Shown here piece after piece: positions 10,911 to 18,387 of a stretch of 35,378 nucleotides of DNA. The DNA is taken from NCBI GenBank assembly GCA_025360815.1, contig JANYBL010000010.1, forward strand, positions 1 through 35,378. The letters are read 5' to 3'. The stretch comes from Burkholderiales bacterium. GTDB lineage: Bacteria; Pseudomonadota; Gammaproteobacteria; Burkholderiales; Usitatibacteraceae. How positions within the stretch are numbered: the first letter of the stretch is position 1; each line of letters starts with the position of its first letter. The notes below the pieces were generated by a model, which searched no databases, was not told where the DNA came from, and saw only the letters and a program-made list of their open reading frames with translations. Position numbers and translations under genes: made by a program.

Positions 10911-11468
10911 ATGCCAGTTTCCCGCGACGACGAAAATATCATTGCCATCACCAATAAATGGCTAGAGCGCGCCGTTATTGGCCTAAACCTTTGCCCATTC
11001 GCAAAAGCGGTACACGTCAAAAAGCAAATCCGCTATGTTGTGAGCGATGCCGACACAGCGGACGCGCTATGCGAAACGTTGGTGGAAGAATTAAAATTTC
11101 TGATTGCCGCCGAAGCAGAAGCCATCGACACCACTCTCATCATCCATCCCCATACGCTCACCGATTTTTTGGACTACAACGATTTCTTGGACCTCGCCAA
11201 CCGAGTTCTGGTCGAGTTGAGATTAGACGGAGAAATCCAGATCGCGAGCTTTCATCCGCAATATCAGTTTGCCAATACTGCACCCGATGACATCACCAAT
11301 TTCACCAACCGATCACCCTACCCGATGCTGCATTTGCTGCGTGAGGCAAGTGTGGAAAAAGCGGTTGCAGCATTCTCCGATGCGGCGATGATCTATGAGA
11401 AAAACATCGCCACAATGCAAACGCTGGGTTTGGCCGGCTGGGAAGCGCTGTTTTCACCGGACTCATAG
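10911..11468 (+). CDS. DUF1415 family protein
   Basis: A 185-residue protein of the DUF1415 family. It shows ITNKWLERAVIGLNLCPFAKAV near the start, then LIIHPHTLTDFLDYNDFL, IASFHPQYQFANTAPDDITNFTNRSPYPMLHLLRE and a C-terminal NIATMQTLGLAGWEALF. The invariant C, H and D/N residues suggest a metal or redox role, but no function is established. It is divergent from prfC across 172 bp and not linked to an operon. The 200 bp after it (11469-11669) contain nothing I recognise. Confidence 0.9.
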   Translation: MPVSRDDENIIAITNKWLERAVIGLNLCPFAKAVHVKKQIRYVVSDADTADALCETLVEELKFLIAAEAEAIDTTLIIHPHTLTDFLDYNDFLDLANRVLVELRLDGEIQIASFHPQYQFANTAPDDITNFTNRSPYPMLHLLREASVEKAVAAFSDAAMIYEKNIATMQTLGLAGWEALFSPDS

Positions 11469-11669
11469 CAATTGATTACTTGCCCAGGCAATGTCGGGGT
11501 GCGTTTAGCAACGGTAGCAAGCGCTTGATGCAGGCAACAAGCTGACGGCAACCTGAAAATTGAACGCTTTATAAGTTCAGGGGCCACATTTTCCGCGCGC
11601 CAGTTTGTACTGTTCGGCAAACAACGGAATTGGAAAATTGGGTCAGTGCGATAGGTTTATGAGTGGCCC

Positions 11670-11699
11670 AAAAAAATGGGGTGGTCTTTCGACCACCCC
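11670..11699 (-). terminator. Strong intrinsic terminator of the small RNA
   Basis: Read on the minus strand: GGGGTGGTC (11699-11691), GAAA tetraloop (11690-11687), GACCACCCC (11686-11678), one A, then seven Ts (11676-11670). It is a perfect 9-bp GC-rich stem closed by a GNRA loop. On the plus strand no T-run follows, so direction is unambiguous. A long U tail of this kind also suits Hfq binding. Confidence 0.9.
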
Positions 11700-11799
11700 T
11701 CAAGGCGCACTCTCGAATACCAGTGGAGGAGAACCTCTGACTGTTTAATAAACAAACCGTCAAAGCGCCCAGGGAGGGAGGGCGTTCCACTAGTATTCA
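11670..11799 (-). ncRNA. Candidate sigma-54-dependent small RNA next to glrR
   Basis: A ~130-nt transcript is predicted from about 11798 to the end of a T-run at 11670. There is no ATG in it. It folds well: GAATACTAGTGG (11798-11787) pairs with CCACTGGTATTC (11726-11715) with a single G-U. Inside are a CGCCC/GGGCG hairpin with loop UCCCUCCCU and a second hairpin (UUUGAC/GUCAGA plus GUUU/AAAC). A single-stranded GGUUCUCCU completes the inner part. A 15-nt spacer then leads to the terminator. Its promoter, enhancer sites and terminator are listed separately. The context (glrK-qseG-glrR upstream on the same strand) parallels enterobacterial glmY, but I see no sequence likeness to GlmY or GlmZ. 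Function and targets are unknown. The pyrimidine loops could pair with Shine-Dalgarno sequences. It could instead be a long 3' tail of glrR, but the promoter argues against that. Confidence 0.75.
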
Positions 11800-11804
11800 A
11801 CAAC

Positions 11805-11826
11805 ATTATATGCAACCGCCGTGCCA
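11805..11826 (-). promoter_or_regulatory. Overlapping sigma-54 and sigma-70 promoters
   Basis: On the minus strand CTGGCACG-GCGG-TTGCA (ending at 11811) matches the sigma-54 -24/-12 consensus TGGCACG-N4-TTGCW at every fixed position. The GC of the -12 element falls at 11813-11812, putting +1 near 11800. TATAAT (11810-11805) directly follows and would place a sigma-70 start near 11798, so both forms would begin at nearly the same base. No good -35 box is seen, so the sigma-70 form is likely weak or activator-dependent. Confidence 0.85.
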
Positions 11827-11902
11827 GAAATCGTAAGATCATTAAAAACAAAGACTTATTTGTTCTGACCCGTGCCTGTAGTTGGTTTGAACCGGTGATG
11901 AT

Positions 11903-11920
11903 TGTCGTGAATTAGCGACA
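11903..11920. promoter_or_regulatory. Predicted GlrR site 1
   Basis: TGTCGTGAATTAGCGACA fits TGTC-N10-GACA exactly, the consensus described for GlrR upstream of enterobacterial glmY. Its centre is about 112 bp upstream of the predicted start, a normal distance for a sigma-54 enhancer. Confidence 0.7.
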
Positions 11921-11965
11921 TTTTCGACGAGAGCCTATAAGTAACTGATTTTATTAGGTTTAATA

Positions 11966-11983
11966 TGTCGTTATTTGGCGACA
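11966..11983. promoter_or_regulatory. Predicted GlrR site 2
   Basis: TGTCGTTATTTGGCGACA fits TGTC-N10-GACA exactly. It shares TGTCGT, an internal TT and GCGACA with site 1. The centres are 63 bp apart, i.e. six helical turns, so both sites face the same side of the DNA. Confidence 0.7.
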
Positions 11984-11986
11984 GTA

Positions 11987-12004
11987 TGCGCCCCAAAAGC
12001 GACA
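11987..12004. promoter_or_regulatory. Degenerate third GlrR-like site
   Basis: TGCGCCCCAAAAGCGACA keeps the right half (AGCGACA, as in site 1) but only TG of the left half. Its centre is 21 bp (two turns) from site 2, in phase with the other two. A third, weaker site is plausible but not certain. Confidence 0.4.
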
Positions 12005-12019
12005 ACATTTTTTCTTTTT

Positions 12020-12036
12020 ATCGGGCGGCGCCCGAT
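12020..12036. other. Hairpin downstream of glrR
   Basis: ATCGGGC-GGC-GCCCGAT is a 7-bp perfect inverted repeat 28 bp after the glrR stop. On the minus strand it is followed by A-rich, not T-rich, sequence, so it is not a standard intrinsic terminator. It might protect the glrR 3' end or limit read-through into the small RNA. Confidence 0.4.
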
Positions 12037-12064
12037 CGCACATAGCGCCCAAACCTCAGCGGGA

Positions 12065-13537
12065 CTAATCAGCGGTCGATTTAAAATGCGCAGGCTCAAG
12101 CCCATGGCGCTGTAGCAATTTATAAAATTCGGTACGATTGCGCTTGGCAATTTTTGCGGCTTGCGAGACGCTGCCCTCTGTCAGCTTAAGTAATCGCGAC
12201 AAATAATCGTATTCAAAACGACGGCGCGATTCCTCAAACGAATCGACGTTATACATACCCACTTGCATCGCTTGCTCGACAATTTTTGGCGCGACAATCT
12301 CGCTACTCGATAGTGCTACCGCTTGCTCGGCCACGTTGTAGAGCTGGCGCACATTGCCCGGCCAAGGGGCGGCCACCATGATCTCCAATGCGTCCGGCGA
12401 GAACGTATTGACGTTTTTCTCATAGCGCACGGCGAGTTTTTTCAGGAAATGATTGAGCAACAGTGGAATGTCCTCACGCCGATCCCGCAGCGTCGGCATA
12501 TTGAGCGTGACGACGTTTAAACGATAGTACAAGTCCTCCCGAAAGCCGCCATCCGCTTTGGCCTGCAGCAAATCGTGATGGCTGGCCGAAATGATGCGCA
12601 CATCGATTGGTACCGTCTTGGTGGAGCCGACGGCGCGCACTTCACGGGCTTCCAACACGCGGAGCAGCTTCACTTGCAGTGGCAACGGCATATCGCCAAT
12701 TTCGTCGAGGAACAAGGTGCCGGTATGGGCTTCCATAAATAAGCCGTTGTGATCCGCGCTGGCGCCGGTAAAGGCGCCCTTCTTATGGCCGAATAGCTCG
12801 CTTTCCAGCAATGTTTCCGGTATCGCGCCGCAGTTGATCGCCACGAATGGCTTGCCGACACGACGGCTGGCGCGATGCAAGGCTCGGGCGAGCAGTTCTT
12901 TACCCGTTCCGCTTTCCCCCTGAATCAACAGACTGGCGTCGCCTTTCGCGACGCGTTCTGCTCTTAATAACAAATCCTCCATCAACGGGCTTTGGCTGAT
13001 GATTTCGGCACGCCAGGAGTCTTCTTCAAGGCTCGCTTTGCGGGATACCGACGCTTTCCCGTGCAGTGCCAGCGCCCGCTCAATTTGGGTAATCAATTCG
13101 TTGCCATCGTAGGGCTTGGTGATATAGCCAAACACGCCTTGGCGGGTGGCAGCAACCGCGTCGGGAATAGTGCCGTGCGCCGTTAAAATTATCACAGGCA
13201 GCCCCGTGTGGCGGCGATCAATTTCATGAAACAACGCCATGCCGTCTAAGCCGGCCATGCGCAAGTCCGTCACCACCAAGTCAGGCCGCTCTGCAGCGAC
13301 CATCGAGAGCGCCTGATTGCCGCTACTTGCCATCGACACCACGTAGCCACTGGCCTTCAAACGGATGGACAACAATTTAAGCAAATCAGGGTCATCATCA
13401 ACCAGCAATAAATTGCCTTTTTTGGCATGCATCGATTGAATTGCTTGGGTGACCTGCGCAGGATAGTTTGGATGCATTGGCTTTATTGAATGTGGCGCTT
13501 GAGAGGAGAATACATCCATGATTGACCGGTGGTTCAT
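12065..13537 (-). CDS. glrR: Sigma-54-dependent response regulator GlrR (QseF)
   Basis: A 490-residue activator. The receiver spans ~41-155 (DDD at 47-49, phosphoacceptor Asp91 in VVTDLRM, Lys141 in TKPYDG). The AAA+ domain spans ~180-410, with Walker A GESGTGKE (207-214), the sigma-54 contact loop GAFTGA (254-259) and Walker B TLFLDEIGDM. A Fis-type helix-turn-helix lies at ~445-485, with NRTEFYKLLQRHGL closely matching enterobacterial GlrR. There is an unusual ~40-residue N-terminal extension before the receiver. Start 13537 has GGAG 7 nt upstream. It is third in the operon glrK-qseG-glrR, the same order as in enterobacteria. In E. coli it activates glmY with sigma-54; here matching sites lie just downstream. 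Confidence 0.95.
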   Translation of the reverse strand: MNHRSIMDVFSSQAPHSIKPMHPNYPAQVTQAIQSMHAKKGNLLLVDDDPDLLKLLSIRLKASGYVVSMASSGNQALSMVAAERPDLVVTDLRMAGLDGMALFHEIDRRHTGLPVIILTAHGTIPDAVAATRQGVFGYITKPYDGNELITQIERALALHGKASVSRKASLEEDSWRAEIISQSPLMEDLLLRAERVAKGDASLLIQGESGTGKELLARALHRASRRVGKPFVAINCGAIPETLLESELFGHKKGAFTGASADHNGLFMEAHTGTLFLDEIGDMPLPLQVKLLRVLEAREVRAVGSTKTVPIDVRIISASHHDLLQAKADGGFREDLYYRLNVVTLNMPTLRDRREDIPLLLNHFLKKLAVRYEKNVNTFSPDALEIMVAAPWPGNVRQLYNVAEQAVALSSSEIVAPKIVEQAMQVGMYNVDSFEESRRRFEYDYLSRLLKLTEGSVSQAAKIAKRNRTEFYKLLQRHGLEPAHFKSTAD

Positions 13538-13652: not shown

Positions 13653-14291
13653 TTATTTGATCCGCGCATCGCCCTTGGTGCTGACGCTACGCTCAATCGA
13701 TTTCAACGCATCCAATTTTTTCTCAAGCTCTTCCACTTTTGCTCGCAAGATTCGTGCCTCAGTTTGTGAGCTGGCCTCGTCACGGCGCGTTGTTTGGGTT
13801 CGGGATTGTGTTTCCTTAAGTTGGTCGCGCAGTTTCTTGCGATCATGCACCAGCGCCTGAATAAGCGTTGCCAAGGCGCGGAGGTCGGGCGCAGGCGAAC
13901 CACCGTTGGCCGTCACGCCATAGGTGATCGGCTCCAACAAACTACTCAATTCAATATCTTCAGAAATGCCAATGGCCGGATTGGGCGCCGAGTTTGGCAA
14001 GCTGGCTGGCGAAAGTGCAAGCAGGATTGCTAATTTCATCCGGTTAAATTCACTTTTGTTCAGCCCGAACTCCGTGCGGACACGCTCTTTTTCTGTCGTC
14101 AGATCAGCGGCCGACATGGCGCGAGCTTCTAGCGAATAATTGAGCAACAACTCACTCGCCAGTTTGGGCGCGGGCTCGACAATGCCGCGGGTTTCAACCG
14201 GCGGCGTGACAGCAGTCGGCTGAATCGCACAGCCAGAAGCTACGGCTAGCGCGACGATAAAAACCGGCAGAACTATTATTTTTTTCTTCAT
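13653..14291 (-). CDS. qseG: QseG-like outer-membrane lipoprotein
   Basis: A 212-residue protein. The start MKKKIIVLPVFIVALAVASGC gives a lipoprotein signal peptide with lipobox ASGC (Cys21), and AAGG lies 8 nt upstream of the ATG. After the signal there is a Pro-rich linker, a helical region, and a C-terminal coiled coil (residues ~155-205, RAKVEELEKKLDAL). In enterobacteria QseG (YfhG) is an outer-membrane lipoprotein that contacts the kinase GlrK (QseE) and modulates its activity. Sequence likeness is weak, so the name rests largely on position between glrK and glrR plus the lipoprotein/coiled-coil layout. Confidence 0.7.
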   Translation of the reverse strand: MKKKIIVLPVFIVALAVASGCAIQPTAVTPPVETRGIVEPAPKLASELLLNYSLEARAMSAADLTTEKERVRTEFGLNKSEFNRMKLAILLALSPASLPNSAPNPAIGISEDIELSSLLEPITYGVTANGGSPAPDLRALATLIQALVHDRKKLRDQLKETQSRTQTTRRDEASSQTEARILRAKVEELEKKLDALKSIERSVSTKGDARIK

Positions 14292-14383
14292 TGCAAGCGC
14301 CTTGTTGAGTGATTCGCACATGAAATTCGATCAATAAAAAAATGTTTCAAACACCGCAAATTATCATTTGCCCCGCTAATTTG

Positions 14384-15844
14384 TCACCGATTTTGCGGAA
14401 TTTGTTTGGGCAAAATTACCCGGAAACGCGCACCAGCCGCTGCAATCACGGAAACCGTACCGCGATGCATTTCCACATAGTCGCGCACAATCGCTAGGCC
14501 CAGCCCTGTGCCTTTAGTGCCGCTACTCACGGCCGTCTTGCTGCGGTAAAACGGATCAAAAATTTTCTCGCGGTCCTCCGCGGCGATGCCGGGGCCGTTA
14601 TCGATGACTTCTAATACCGCGTTGTCTTTATGTTTGCCCAAACGAATCGCAACCGTGCCGCCTACCGGCGAATATTTGATCGAGTTCGAGAGCAAATTAT
14701 CGATCACCACTCGCAGCTTGGCCGCGTCGCCCTGCATGGTGGTTTTATCGCAATCTAGTTTAAGCGTAATGACCTTGGCTACCATTGCAATTTTTTGTGT
14801 GGCAACGACTTCGTCAATCAGATCTTTGAGCTGCAAAGGTTGAATGTCCAACGCCGTCTTTTGGTTTAGACGGTCCGCTGATTGTGCTTGCGAATAGGTA
14901 AGCAAATCTTGAATCAATTTTTCTAGCGTCAGTGAATTCTGCCGCAGAATTTCTGCCACTTCGCGTTGCTCACTTGTGAGCGGGCCAACCACGCCATCGG
15001 TTAGCAATTCAGAGCCTTCCCGCAACGCGGTTAGCGGTGTTTTGAGTTCATGCGAGACATGTTGAAAGAAGCGCGTTTTTTGGTCCTCCAACGTAATCAA
15101 ACGCTGCCGGAGCCAATCCAATTGCTCACCGAGCTGTTCAATATCATGCGGCCCCGAAACCTGAATCCGGCGTGCCAATTTGCCCTCGCCGAGGCGATGA
15201 ATTGCGATCCCCAATTCACGCACCGGACGCGCCAGCAAATACGTGAAACCGGCAATCATCAACAACGCGGAAGGAATAATCGCCAACAATTGCCACAGCA
15301 CCTGGTTTTTTGATTTAGTCGCCGCCGCCCGCAAGGTGCCGACCTCTTGTTCCACTAACTGGTTCGATAACCCAGTGAGCGATTCCATGCGCATAGATAG
15401 CTCGGCGAAGTCACGCTCGAGTTGTTTTGCCAACTGCGGCGATGAACTCTTGGTTGTAAGGGACGTAAAGACCGCATTCTCGGTCAATTGTGCTGCCTCG
15501 GCGCTGGCCCGCAAATCAGGCGCTAAGGGTGTGGAGGGAAGCGCCAAAAACTGTGCCAATAGTGCTTGGAATGTCACACGTGATTTTTTATAGCTCTCAA
15601 CCATTTCGCGTTCACCCGCGACGGCGTAAAACCGCGCCGAGCGCTCCATCGCCAAGCTCAGCGCGGCCAGCTGTCGTGCATTTTGCGTGGCAAGGGTGGC
15701 GTTGTACACCGCCTGCTGACTTTGCACTGATAAACGCTCAATCGATAGCGCGTTGCTCACCAAGCCTGCGATCAGCGGGAGCGCAACAATAAAAAATCCA
15801 ATCAAGAGTAAAGCCAAAAACGAGCGCGGGTAGCGTAGTTGCAT
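14384..15844 (-). CDS. glrK: Sensor histidine kinase GlrK (QseE)
   Basis: A 486-residue inner-membrane kinase. TM1 (~8-30) and TM2 (~183-205) flank a helical periplasmic sensor with LAMERSARFYAVAGE, as in enterobacterial GlrK. A HAMP-like linker follows (~205-258: RLGEGKLARRI, SGPHDIEQLGEQLDWL). The H-box is FFQHVSHELKTPL (His265), with TALREGSELLTDGVVGPLTSEQREV as in GlrK. The ATPase domain has N-box DNLLSNSIKYS, G1 VIDNGPGIA and G2 GTKGTGLGLAI. ATG 15844 is preferred because it begins just before TM1. It phosphorylates GlrR. The 267 bp upstream, shared with the divergent DUF3460 gene, show no TGTC-N10-GACA site, so no autoregulation is evident. Confidence 0.93.
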   Translation of the reverse strand: MQLRYPRSFLALLLIGFFIVALPLIAGLVSNALSIERLSVQSQQAVYNATLATQNARQLAALSLAMERSARFYAVAGEREMVESYKKSRVTFQALLAQFLALPSTPLAPDLRASAEAAQLTENAVFTSLTTKSSSPQLAKQLERDFAELSMRMESLTGLSNQLVEQEVGTLRAAATKSKNQVLWQLLAIIPSALLMIAGFTYLLARPVRELGIAIHRLGEGKLARRIQVSGPHDIEQLGEQLDWLRQRLITLEDQKTRFFQHVSHELKTPLTALREGSELLTDGVVGPLTSEQREVAEILRQNSLTLEKLIQDLLTYSQAQSADRLNQKTALDIQPLQLKDLIDEVVATQKIAMVAKVITLKLDCDKTTMQGDAAKLRVVIDNLLSNSIKYSPVGGTVAIRLGKHKDNAVLEVIDNGPGIAAEDREKIFDPFYRSKTAVSSGTKGTGLGLAIVRDYVEMHRGTVSVIAAAGARFRVILPKQIPQNR

Positions 15845-16111
15845 ATATGACTTATTGGTTTTATAGGTTGATTTGCGTGATTCAGTGCGTCGGTGCAATC
15901 GTTCATACGGTAAAGCAATGCTGGATGGACGGCTATATTGTTCGCTACTTTCAACGAAACTAATAAGTAAGGCAATGAGCAAAAGTTATGCCACTATTAT
16001 TTATTATTATGGACGCGTTGCATAAAGCCCGTAAAATCAGGGCATTGCTATAGATGTCCTTAACAACATCCAACCAAAATCTCATCATCACTGCCGCGCA
16101 GAAAGAAAAAC

Positions 16112-17313: not shown

Positions 17314-18387
17314 TTACCCAAAATCGACTGCGGCAATCGTCTCAAGGGCCTTATTCCGCGCGGCCTCCGGCAAGAACGACACGGCCGCCGCTTGTTGCAT
17401 CATGCGCTTAATTTGCAGCTTCGACACGCCGTTTTGATCATGTACCGCTTGCAATTCGGCGCTCATCGTCACGCCTGACATGAGTCGGTTATCGGTAGAG
17501 CACGAGACCGATAGCCCCGCCTCAATCATGTCATGCAGCGGATGGGTGGCGAGCGATGCGACCGCGCCGGTATGCACATTGCTAGTCGGGCAAACCTCAA
17601 AATGAGTGGCTGCAGCGCGTGCTTGGTTCAACCATTCCTCCTGCTGCGCTGCGCTGCGTGCATACATGACATTGATGCCGTGGCCAATTCGCGTTGCGCC
17701 CAGCGCCACCGCCTCAAGCACGCGCGAACCATCATCGGCTTCGCCCGCATGGAAAGTAACGCCGAGCCCGGCATTCCGAGCAAGTGCCAAGGCATCCGCG
17801 AACAGCGCGGGCGGGAAACCACGTTCGGGACCAGCCAAATCGAAGCCAATCACGCCTTGGCCTTGATAGCAGGCGGCGAGTTTGGCAGCGCGCAATATTT
17901 TTTCCGGTGGATCAAGCTTGATTCCGCAAACAATCAGTCCGCACGCTAAGTCGCTGCGTTGTAGACCGGCAATGAGCGCCTCGACAACGGCTTCGCCGGC
18001 GAGGTTATATTCCTCCAGCAACAAGGGTGCCATGCGAAATTCAGCCAGTACACAGCCATCAAGCCTTGCATCCTCAGCGGCCTCAAAGGCAACACGTTCG
18101 CAAGCATCAAGTGACGCCATGGCGGCAACGGTCAAAGCAAAGCCATCTAGATATCGGACCAAGCTGCCGGCGTTGGCGTTGGCCAGCATCCAATCGGCCA
18201 ATTCAGACGGCTTAGTTGCGGGAATGACAAGCTGCTTGTGTTGGCAAAGTTCAAGCAATGTTTGTGGACGAAGGCCACCGTCCAAATGTTCGTGCAACAG
18301 CACCTTTGGGAGTTGTTGCCAGTAGGTTGTTTGCGATGTTGCGTTCGATGTTGCGTTCGACGTTGCGGTGTAGGCTGAAATTGGCAT
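17314..18387 (-). CDS. add: Adenosine deaminase
   Basis: A 357-residue zinc enzyme that converts adenosine to inosine. Metal and catalytic motifs are present: HEHLDG (His32, His34) near the N terminus, a central TFHAGE with the catalytic Glu, and IGHGINVM. Near the C terminus there is SCSTDNRLMS in place of the commoner SxDDP; the NTDNRLMS form is seen in many bacterial enzymes of this family. The start at 18387 is taken because the longer frame runs antiparallel into unrelated sequence. The N terminus contains a Ser-Asn-Ala-Thr repeat (18335-18370). Next to it is a nucleotide-transporter-like gene, fitting purine salvage. Confidence 0.9.
   Translation of the reverse strand: MPISAYTATSNATSNATSQTTYWQQLPKVLLHEHLDGGLRPQTLLELCQHKQLVIPATKPSELADWMLANANAGSLVRYLDGFALTVAAMASLDACERVAFEAAEDARLDGCVLAEFRMAPLLLEEYNLAGEAVVEALIAGLQRSDLACGLIVCGIKLDPPEKILRAAKLAACYQGQGVIGFDLAGPERGFPPALFADALALARNAGLGVTFHAGEADDGSRVLEAVALGATRIGHGINVMYARSAAQQEEWLNQARAAATHFEVCPTSNVHTGAVASLATHPLHDMIEAGLSVSCSTDNRLMSGVTMSAELQAVHDQNGVSKLQIKRMMQQAAAVSFLPEAARNKALETIAAVDFG
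18335..18370. repeat. Three 12-bp tandem units in the add N terminus
   Basis: GATGTTGCGTTC occurs twice perfectly and a third time with changes (GACGTTGCGGTG). On the coding strand it encodes a SNAT repeat ahead of the catalytic barrel. It is in frame, so slippage would change the N-terminal length by four residues without breaking the gene. Confidence 0.7.

Follow-up and report, generated by a model that had tools for sequence, protein, structure and literature searches.

Behind glrR in a member of the Burkholderiales lies a non-coding stretch that raises the question whether GlrR drives a small RNA there, and whether such an RNA would belong with GlmY. At E. coli glmY, according to the part of the source available to us, QseF sites of the type TGTN12ACA, assistance by IHF and a sigma-54 promoter come together, and the sRNA gene adjoins the kinase-lipoprotein-regulator operon (PMC6075780). 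We analysed a stretch of 35,378 nt, here called the window, for which a sequence-only reading had proposed a GlrR- and sigma-54-controlled sRNA of an undescribed family, and beyond that an ancestral module in which GlrKR activates an sRNA.

The features of the locus are compiled in Table 1. In an NCBIfam scan of the regulator GlrR was the best of 111 models (611 bits, below the curated cut-off of 763), and the locus has the kinase-lipoprotein-regulator gene order and the TGT-N12-ACA sites used to recognise GlrR/QseF. The 222-aa product encoded between kinase and regulator matched no protein family, nor did the PDB offer anything meaningful; because of its lipobox-like sequence and its place in the locus we regard it as the qseG counterpart. 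PDB chain 9m08_C covers residues 51–525 of the kinase (E 2e-65), while the next matches begin at residue 248 or later; the PDB record is annotated as ‘histidine kinase’ and nothing more specific. Clusters of qseEGF have already been published for Betaproteobacteria, as the accessible portion of that work states (PMC12691602). The distance from the glrR stop codon to the first UAS is 81 bp on the minus strand. Beyond the RNA gene follows a convergent DUF1415 gene (10911–11468, plus strand), so that the RNA is not a leader here.

Table 1. Features of the glrK-qseG-glrR locus, the promoter array and the RNA gene in the window.
Feature	Position	Strand	Basis
glrK (qseE)-type histidine kinase	14384–15982	-	HAMP, HisKA, HATPase_c; PDB chain 9m08_C
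Lipoprotein gene, qseG position	13653–14321	-	lipobox-like ASGC; between kinase and regulator
glrR (qseF)-type sigma-54 response regulator	12065–13537	-	Response_reg and Sigma54_activat domains; NCBIfam GlrR top model
UAS1 TGTCGCCAAATAACGACA, GlrR-type 18-bp TGTC-N10-GACA	11966–11983	-	pattern and conservation
IHF-like site AATCAGTTACTTA, between UAS1 and UAS2	11938–11950	-	match to WATCARNNNNTTR
UAS2 TGTCGCTAATTCACGACA, GlrR-type 18-bp TGTC-N10-GACA	11903–11920	-	pattern and conservation
Sigma-54 -24/-12 promoter TGGCACGGCGGTTGCA	11811–11826	-	mismatch-free; 94 bp from UAS2 start
Small RNA gene, ~131 nt	11670–11800	-	5' end estimated from promoter; fold, covariation, no kept ORF, no Rfam family
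Hairpin P2, exposed UCCCUCCCU-type loop	11766–11784	-	helix pairs in all 7 aligned sequences
C/U-rich linker UUCUCCUCC, putative anti-Shine-Dalgarno seed	11725–11733	-	last bases pair in the model's closing stem
RNA core UUCGAGAGUGCGCCUU	11702–11717	-	first bases close the stem, remainder unpaired in the model
Intrinsic terminator, 9-bp stem, GAAA loop	11678–11699	-	followed by A and U7 at 11676–11670

Both the TGTC-N10-GACA palindromes and the consensus-perfect sigma-54 promoter claimed earlier are present, the two UAS lying 63 bp apart. Two or more such palindromes also turned up in 2 of 100 shuffled windows. As the UAS pair alone is thus only moderately unlikely, the weight of the case rests on conservation, which we followed in 28 genomes of the window's GTDB family. 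GlrR was found at E≤1e-120 in 20 of them, leaving 19 assessable glrR loci after exclusion of G023, where the locus lies at a contig edge. All 19 carry paired UAS with at most one mismatch each, spaced by 63–67 bp, and a sigma-54 promoter (≤1 mismatch) at a distance of 92–95 bp from UAS2, followed by an RNA with GUGCGCCUU and then a terminator (which in G011 is cut short by the contig end). The combination of UAS pair and sigma-54 promoter, seen in 19/19 loci, was found in 0/19 cases on the antisense strand and in 0/19 within glrR, and shuffles gave 0.0; on this comparison the ordered array with its conserved spacing is not due to chance. An element absent from the earlier reading is the IHF-like site between the UAS, matching WATCARNNNNTTR, which we take to be the IHF consensus. 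Exact matches lie between the UAS in 14/19 family loci, 15–16 nt past UAS1 (0.05 expected from mononucleotide shuffles), and allowing one mismatch raises this to 18/19 (1.4 expected); exact matches also occur in 7 of 31 loci from other families (0.13 expected). The proposed overlap with a sigma-70 -10 box held only in part: TATAAT does stand at 11810–11805, but a simple scan of this strand detects no sigma-70 promoter, and the exact hexamer is missing from all ten relatives viewed by eye, although a TATA-like sequence survives in several. The array and its linkage to glrR lead us to infer that GlrR and sigma-54 control the RNA. A second mismatch-free TGGCAC-N5-TTGCW in the window (18017–18032, minus strand) is situated within an ORF and probably a chance occurrence.

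In the window and in the 19 family loci the RNA is positioned downstream of glrR. Searching at the DNA level gave matches in 11 of 61 genomes, counting the window's own, all of them in the window's family, and a covariance model built from seven sequences matched 16 of the 28 family genomes; it missed G015, G024 and G025, whose RNAs were located by DNA search or inspection. The eight family genomes without a GlrR match yielded no covariance-model match (0/8), and four of these (G003, G004, G008 and G010) belong to the window's genus and are 99–100% complete. As judged from the genomes compared, the RNA is strictly linked to glrR within the family. A search with TTCRAGAGTGCGCCTTNNGGGG in genome_contigs, a collection described as covering 84,980 species, returned 14 stretches, all titled Betaproteobacteria or Burkholderiales, and every one that we could assign to a genome came from the window's family. 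Strain GR16-43, also among the 14 and available as a complete genome (CP019169), is unclassified at NCBI; we take it to be placed in Usitatibacteraceae by GTDB. With up to one mismatch the core occurs in 59 of 399 genomes of the order, and neither the exact matches outside the family (G092, G224, G366) nor the near matches in two family genomes without GlrR match, G004 and G020, have an array in the 330 nt upstream; the near match in G020 sits in a peptidase-like ORF. Among the matches listed for literature queries combining GlrR/QseF with betaproteobacteria, Burkholderia, sRNA and sigma-54, and Usitatibacter with sRNA, in a scope that mostly leaves aside subscription journals, no title or beginning of an abstract describes this RNA.

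The segment behind the promoter bears out the description of a roughly 130-nt structured stretch ending in a GNRA-capped terminator: it contains no ATG and folds with -61.4 kcal/mol as compared to -38.4 ± 4.1 kcal/mol for shuffles (z = -5.6). The model for the window's genus and its sister genus comprises, in this order, a long closing stem, the hairpin with the UCCCUCCCU-type loop, a second hairpin, the C/U-rich linker, the unpaired core and the terminator. In the alignment of seven sequences 93.9% of the cells are paired, and two-sided changes are found in 17 of 40 pairs (7.8 in shuffles, 0–5 in slid controls); a second measure, further pair types, was not significant, as 34 of 500 shuffles reached it. 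The body folds differently in two other genera of the family, with two-sided changes in 2/27 and 7/37 pairs, counted without a control. What had been asked of the relatives came out unevenly: promoter and sites are kept in the family, the stems only in two genera, and the RNA was found in this one family only. Likewise absent from the earlier reading is the RNA core behind a CUCC-rich linker. Apart from the position R, TTCRAGAGTGCGCCTT is invariant across 11 aligned RNAs, giving the core UUCRAGAGUGCGCCUU; its part GUGCGCCUU is kept in 19/19 family loci and AGAGUGCGCC in 18/19. CUCC stands at the linker position in 18/19 loci, CCUCC in 17/19. At the gathering cut-off no Rfam family matched the window or any of the 19 loci, and GlmY and GlmZ are absent even from the matches at E≤10 in 11500–12100; weak matches (E 0.05–6), all below gathering, were set aside. 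With a conserved promoter, stems in two genera and no Rfam match, the segment may well represent an sRNA family not described before, as had been suggested.

How, then, does this RNA relate to GlmY? The two resemble each other in lying next to the kinase-lipoprotein-regulator genes and in the GlrR-type UAS, the IHF-like site and the sigma-54 promoter predicted for the window RNA. They differ in that the window RNA lies downstream of glrR and has two UAS, whereas GlmY lies upstream of the kinase gene of the qseE-qseG-qseF operon and has three, and in that the window RNA comes without Rfam match, conserved sigma-70 promoter or sign of a link to glmS. We consider it very improbable that the RNA is a functional analogue of GlmY, i.e. 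a RapZ decoy that spares another sRNA and thereby raises glmS, even though regulator type and DNA-site type are those reported for E. coli glmY in the accessible text of PMC6075780. A RapZ-like_N domain was found in 9/9 family genomes tested, but RapZ is present as well in the two genomes tested in which glrR and the RNA are both missing, and neither GlmY nor GlmZ nor any other Rfam model matches. We also tried glmS as a target: in RNAduplex calculations against 100 mononucleotide shuffles the RNA pairs no better than shuffles at 15 of 17 glmS loci, p≤0.05 being reached only at two (G005 and one locus of G025). The general principle of an enhancer-binding protein activating a sigma-54-dependent sRNA is also known from Qrr1/LuxO, to go by the portion of PMC10162802 at hand, where RNA and host group are unrelated to ours.

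Among betaproteobacterial sRNAs, S17/bdhR1 (Rfam RF02278) shares with the window RNA an unpaired C/U-rich stretch before the terminator, as far as S17 can be compared by its description. In Bordetella, the available part of the publication reports, S17 binds Hfq and directly represses BP2158 translation via Site 1, its unpaired 5' end, next to which lies a C/U-rich loop; unlike the window RNA it has a sigma-70-type promoter, a short form produced by processing, and another core and other stems (PMC11722255). The window locus (G000:C65) is not among the RF02278 covariance-model matches, and any working like S17 would be an analogy rather than membership in RF02278. RF02278-type candidates do occur elsewhere in these genomes, all below the Rfam cut-off, with control genomes matching weakly too; they start with GTCTCCTCCTC in 7 of 8 loci read. 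Such RF02278-like loci with a GTCTCCTCCTC start before a terminator are L283–L287, L289 and L290, and they are also present in G003, which is without the glrR-linked RNA. A separate observation concerns L288 (G019:C1 near 1431737), where at ~1440–1560 a hairpin, UUUCUCCUCCGAGAG and a terminator-like stem come immediately after a sigma-54-like promoter TGGCACGCTCCCTGCA. It is a candidate for a second sigma-54-driven CUCC-rich sRNA; the locus contains no TGT-N12-ACA pattern.

The reading we favour, and hold to be rather probable, is that of a trans-acting sRNA of the GlrK-QseG-GlrR locus, driven by GlrR, IHF and sigma-54, which likely acts as a repressor covering Shine-Dalgarno regions and constitutes a family-specific cargo of the promoter. 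Phosphorylated GlrR would bind both UAS, IHF would bend the intervening DNA, and sigma-54 polymerase would start at about 11800 and produce an RNA of ~131 nt ending at the terminator. This RNA would expose CUCC-rich stretches, in the P2 loop and the UUCUCCUCC linker, together with the invariant core beside the terminator. Most likely its anti-SD linker would occupy the Shine-Dalgarno regions of several mRNAs and so repress their translation. The 3' part (linker, core and terminator) is probably the working module and the 5' structured domain replaceable. In a duplex calculation the UUCUCCUCC linker proved able to pair with Shine-Dalgarno sequences. Besides the S17 precedent, the enrichment of CUCC speaks for this reading, with 60 occurrences in 18 RNA bodies as compared to 20.3 ± 3.7 in shuffles, which ignore kinship. 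RNA length, counted from the estimated +1, varies from 44 to 139 nt across the family, and the short versions in G015 (65 nt) and G025 (44 nt) both retain GUGCGCCUU and the terminator. Against it stand the 44-nt version, which has an altered core start and no linker, the minimum-energy folds of 5/18 RNAs, in which no CUCC is unpaired, the different body fold in two genera, and the negative outcome of the target searches reported below.

These same short versions bear on another possibility, namely that the RNA acts mainly via the invariant core GAGUGCGCCUU, as a seed for specific mRNAs or as an Hfq- or protein-binding element, with the CUCC parts being secondary. We regard this as possible, though on the unlikely side: GUGCGCCUU and the terminator are the only RNA elements kept in all 19 loci, including the linker-less one, and the core is unpaired in the model, but its complement AAGGCGCACTC is not enriched over the 19 RNA-bearing genomes. 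All 23 genomes searched contain the complement, including four that lack the RNA; of 57 matches in the 19 RNA-bearing genomes 18 are the RNA gene itself, and the 39 others, all inspected, compare with 45 for the reversed pattern. The seven RNA-bearing members of the window's genus do show a small excess (14 non-self matches vs 5 reversed), whereas four relatives without the RNA have 9 vs 10. Three matches lie near a start codon (L134, L139, L158), none of them recurrent, and recurrent matches sit inside long ORFs. Targets of the favoured Shine-Dalgarno pairing were sought with GGAGGAGAA-N2-10-ATG in 12 genomes, of which four lack the RNA; the 30 of 37 matches examined gave no recurrent target, and for products >40 aa the sole recurrence was one locus listed twice. 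A string similar to the GGAGGAGAA site is shared by G000, G002 and G003, the last of which has no such RNA; in the G000 and G003 loci read it opens no more than 4–5 codons.

TGTC-N10-GACA itself is found 34 times in the window's own genome, as opposed to 10 times for the reversed pattern. Inspection of 21 of the 32 sites outside the window gave a single mismatch-free sigma-54 promoter within 320 bp. It belongs to L265 (G000:C28, minus strand, ~1550–786), where promoter TGGCACAGCGGTTGCA and a TGTC-N10-GACA site stand upstream of a type IV pilin-like gene, with a second pilin-like gene next; we presume control by PilR to be the likelier reading, though the GlrR-like site is odd.

The array is not confined to the family. 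Among 399 genomes from the order, 151 encode GlrR-like proteins (E≤1e-135), and nine (G056, G108, G117, G122, G142, G185, G248, G291, G359) have two above threshold. We looked at 82 glrR loci outside the family, 22 from the best-scoring matches and 60 hand-picked for variety among those listed. UAS and sigma-54 promoter follow glrR in 60 of the 82 loci, with a full UAS pair in 31 (controls: antisense 0, inside glrR 1, shuffles 0.2), and 22 loci are without array at this stringency. An ORF of ≥40 aa preceded by a Shine-Dalgarno sequence lies within 360 nt of 41 of the 60 non-family arrays vs 21 of 60 on the antisense strand; within the family the same test gave 8/19 vs 9/19, i.e. background. 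The test is unspecific but separates the family from other families. Of 18 hand-chosen products encoded behind non-family arrays 15 scored over a family cut-off, namely BON (four, one with EF-hands), CsbD, glycine zipper, DUF1328, MdoG (2/2) and MdoH (6/6), and the remaining three comprise one glycine-zipper match below cut-off and two without match. The periplasmic glucan synthesis genes mdoG or mdoH directly follow the array in L219, L230, L214, L238, L242, L248, L251 and L259; in L214 and L238 mdoH starts >200 nt away from the promoter, so that a leader would fit in between. Behind the array of L213 no clear product is seen, and an RNA could be encoded there. In L246 and L250 the array is located ~375–455 nt past glrR and precedes a small protein, which in L250 is a DUF1328 protein; a further sigma-54-like site stands nearer to glrR. 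In L208 (3054–3215, minus strand) a short ORF with GGFGGTGAP repeats follows a GlrR-type array.

Protein genes behind such arrays elsewhere suggest that the RNA might be the mRNA, or the remnant, of a small protein gene. In four members of the window's genus (G001, G002, G006, G011) a frame with the shared beginning MLLDR/HPPSLGA starts from an ATG at position 4 of the RNA. We nevertheless hold this origin to be extremely unlikely, since that ATG is absent from the window and the remaining members, the frames run to 21, 34, 21 and 85 codons, no ORF conserved across the family was found within the RNA, ORFs preceded by a Shine-Dalgarno sequence are at background in the family only, the RNA length is variable down to 44 nt, and its base pairs covary. 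It appears that the RNA is a cargo peculiar to this family, carried by a GlrR/sigma-54 promoter of order-wide occurrence, and that it is an analogue of GlmY in arrangement and not a homologue.

An ancestral sRNA module as proposed in the sequence-only reading is disfavoured by these comparisons, because the array occurs widely across the order, often with a protein as cargo, and the RNA core was found in one family only. Instead, we see about an even chance that an order-wide ‘socket’ of UAS-IHF-UAS-sigma-54 beside glrR had its cargo swapped repeatedly between CsbD, BON/EF-hand, glycine-zipper, DUF1328, mdoG/mdoH and one new sRNA that arose independently of GlmY. The array comparison by itself accommodates either direction of cargo change. 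Pathway and protein cargos together point to an envelope theme; according to the available part of PMC3162934, QseF-like activators have been classed and sigma-54 tied to the cell exterior.

The locus thus presents an sRNA family absent from Rfam together with its promoter, a likely regulator and a probable working module. It also suggests possible targets of GlrKR in betaproteobacteria, periplasmic-glucan genes included, on which the papers found, in the parts accessible, are silent, and it suggests that one regulator retains its promoter while the product, protein or RNA, gets exchanged. The array comparison makes convergence with GlmY testable. If cargo was indeed swapped at a standing promoter beside glrR, GlmY and the RNA of this family would be convergent captures of RNA regulators by one envelope-signalling pathway.
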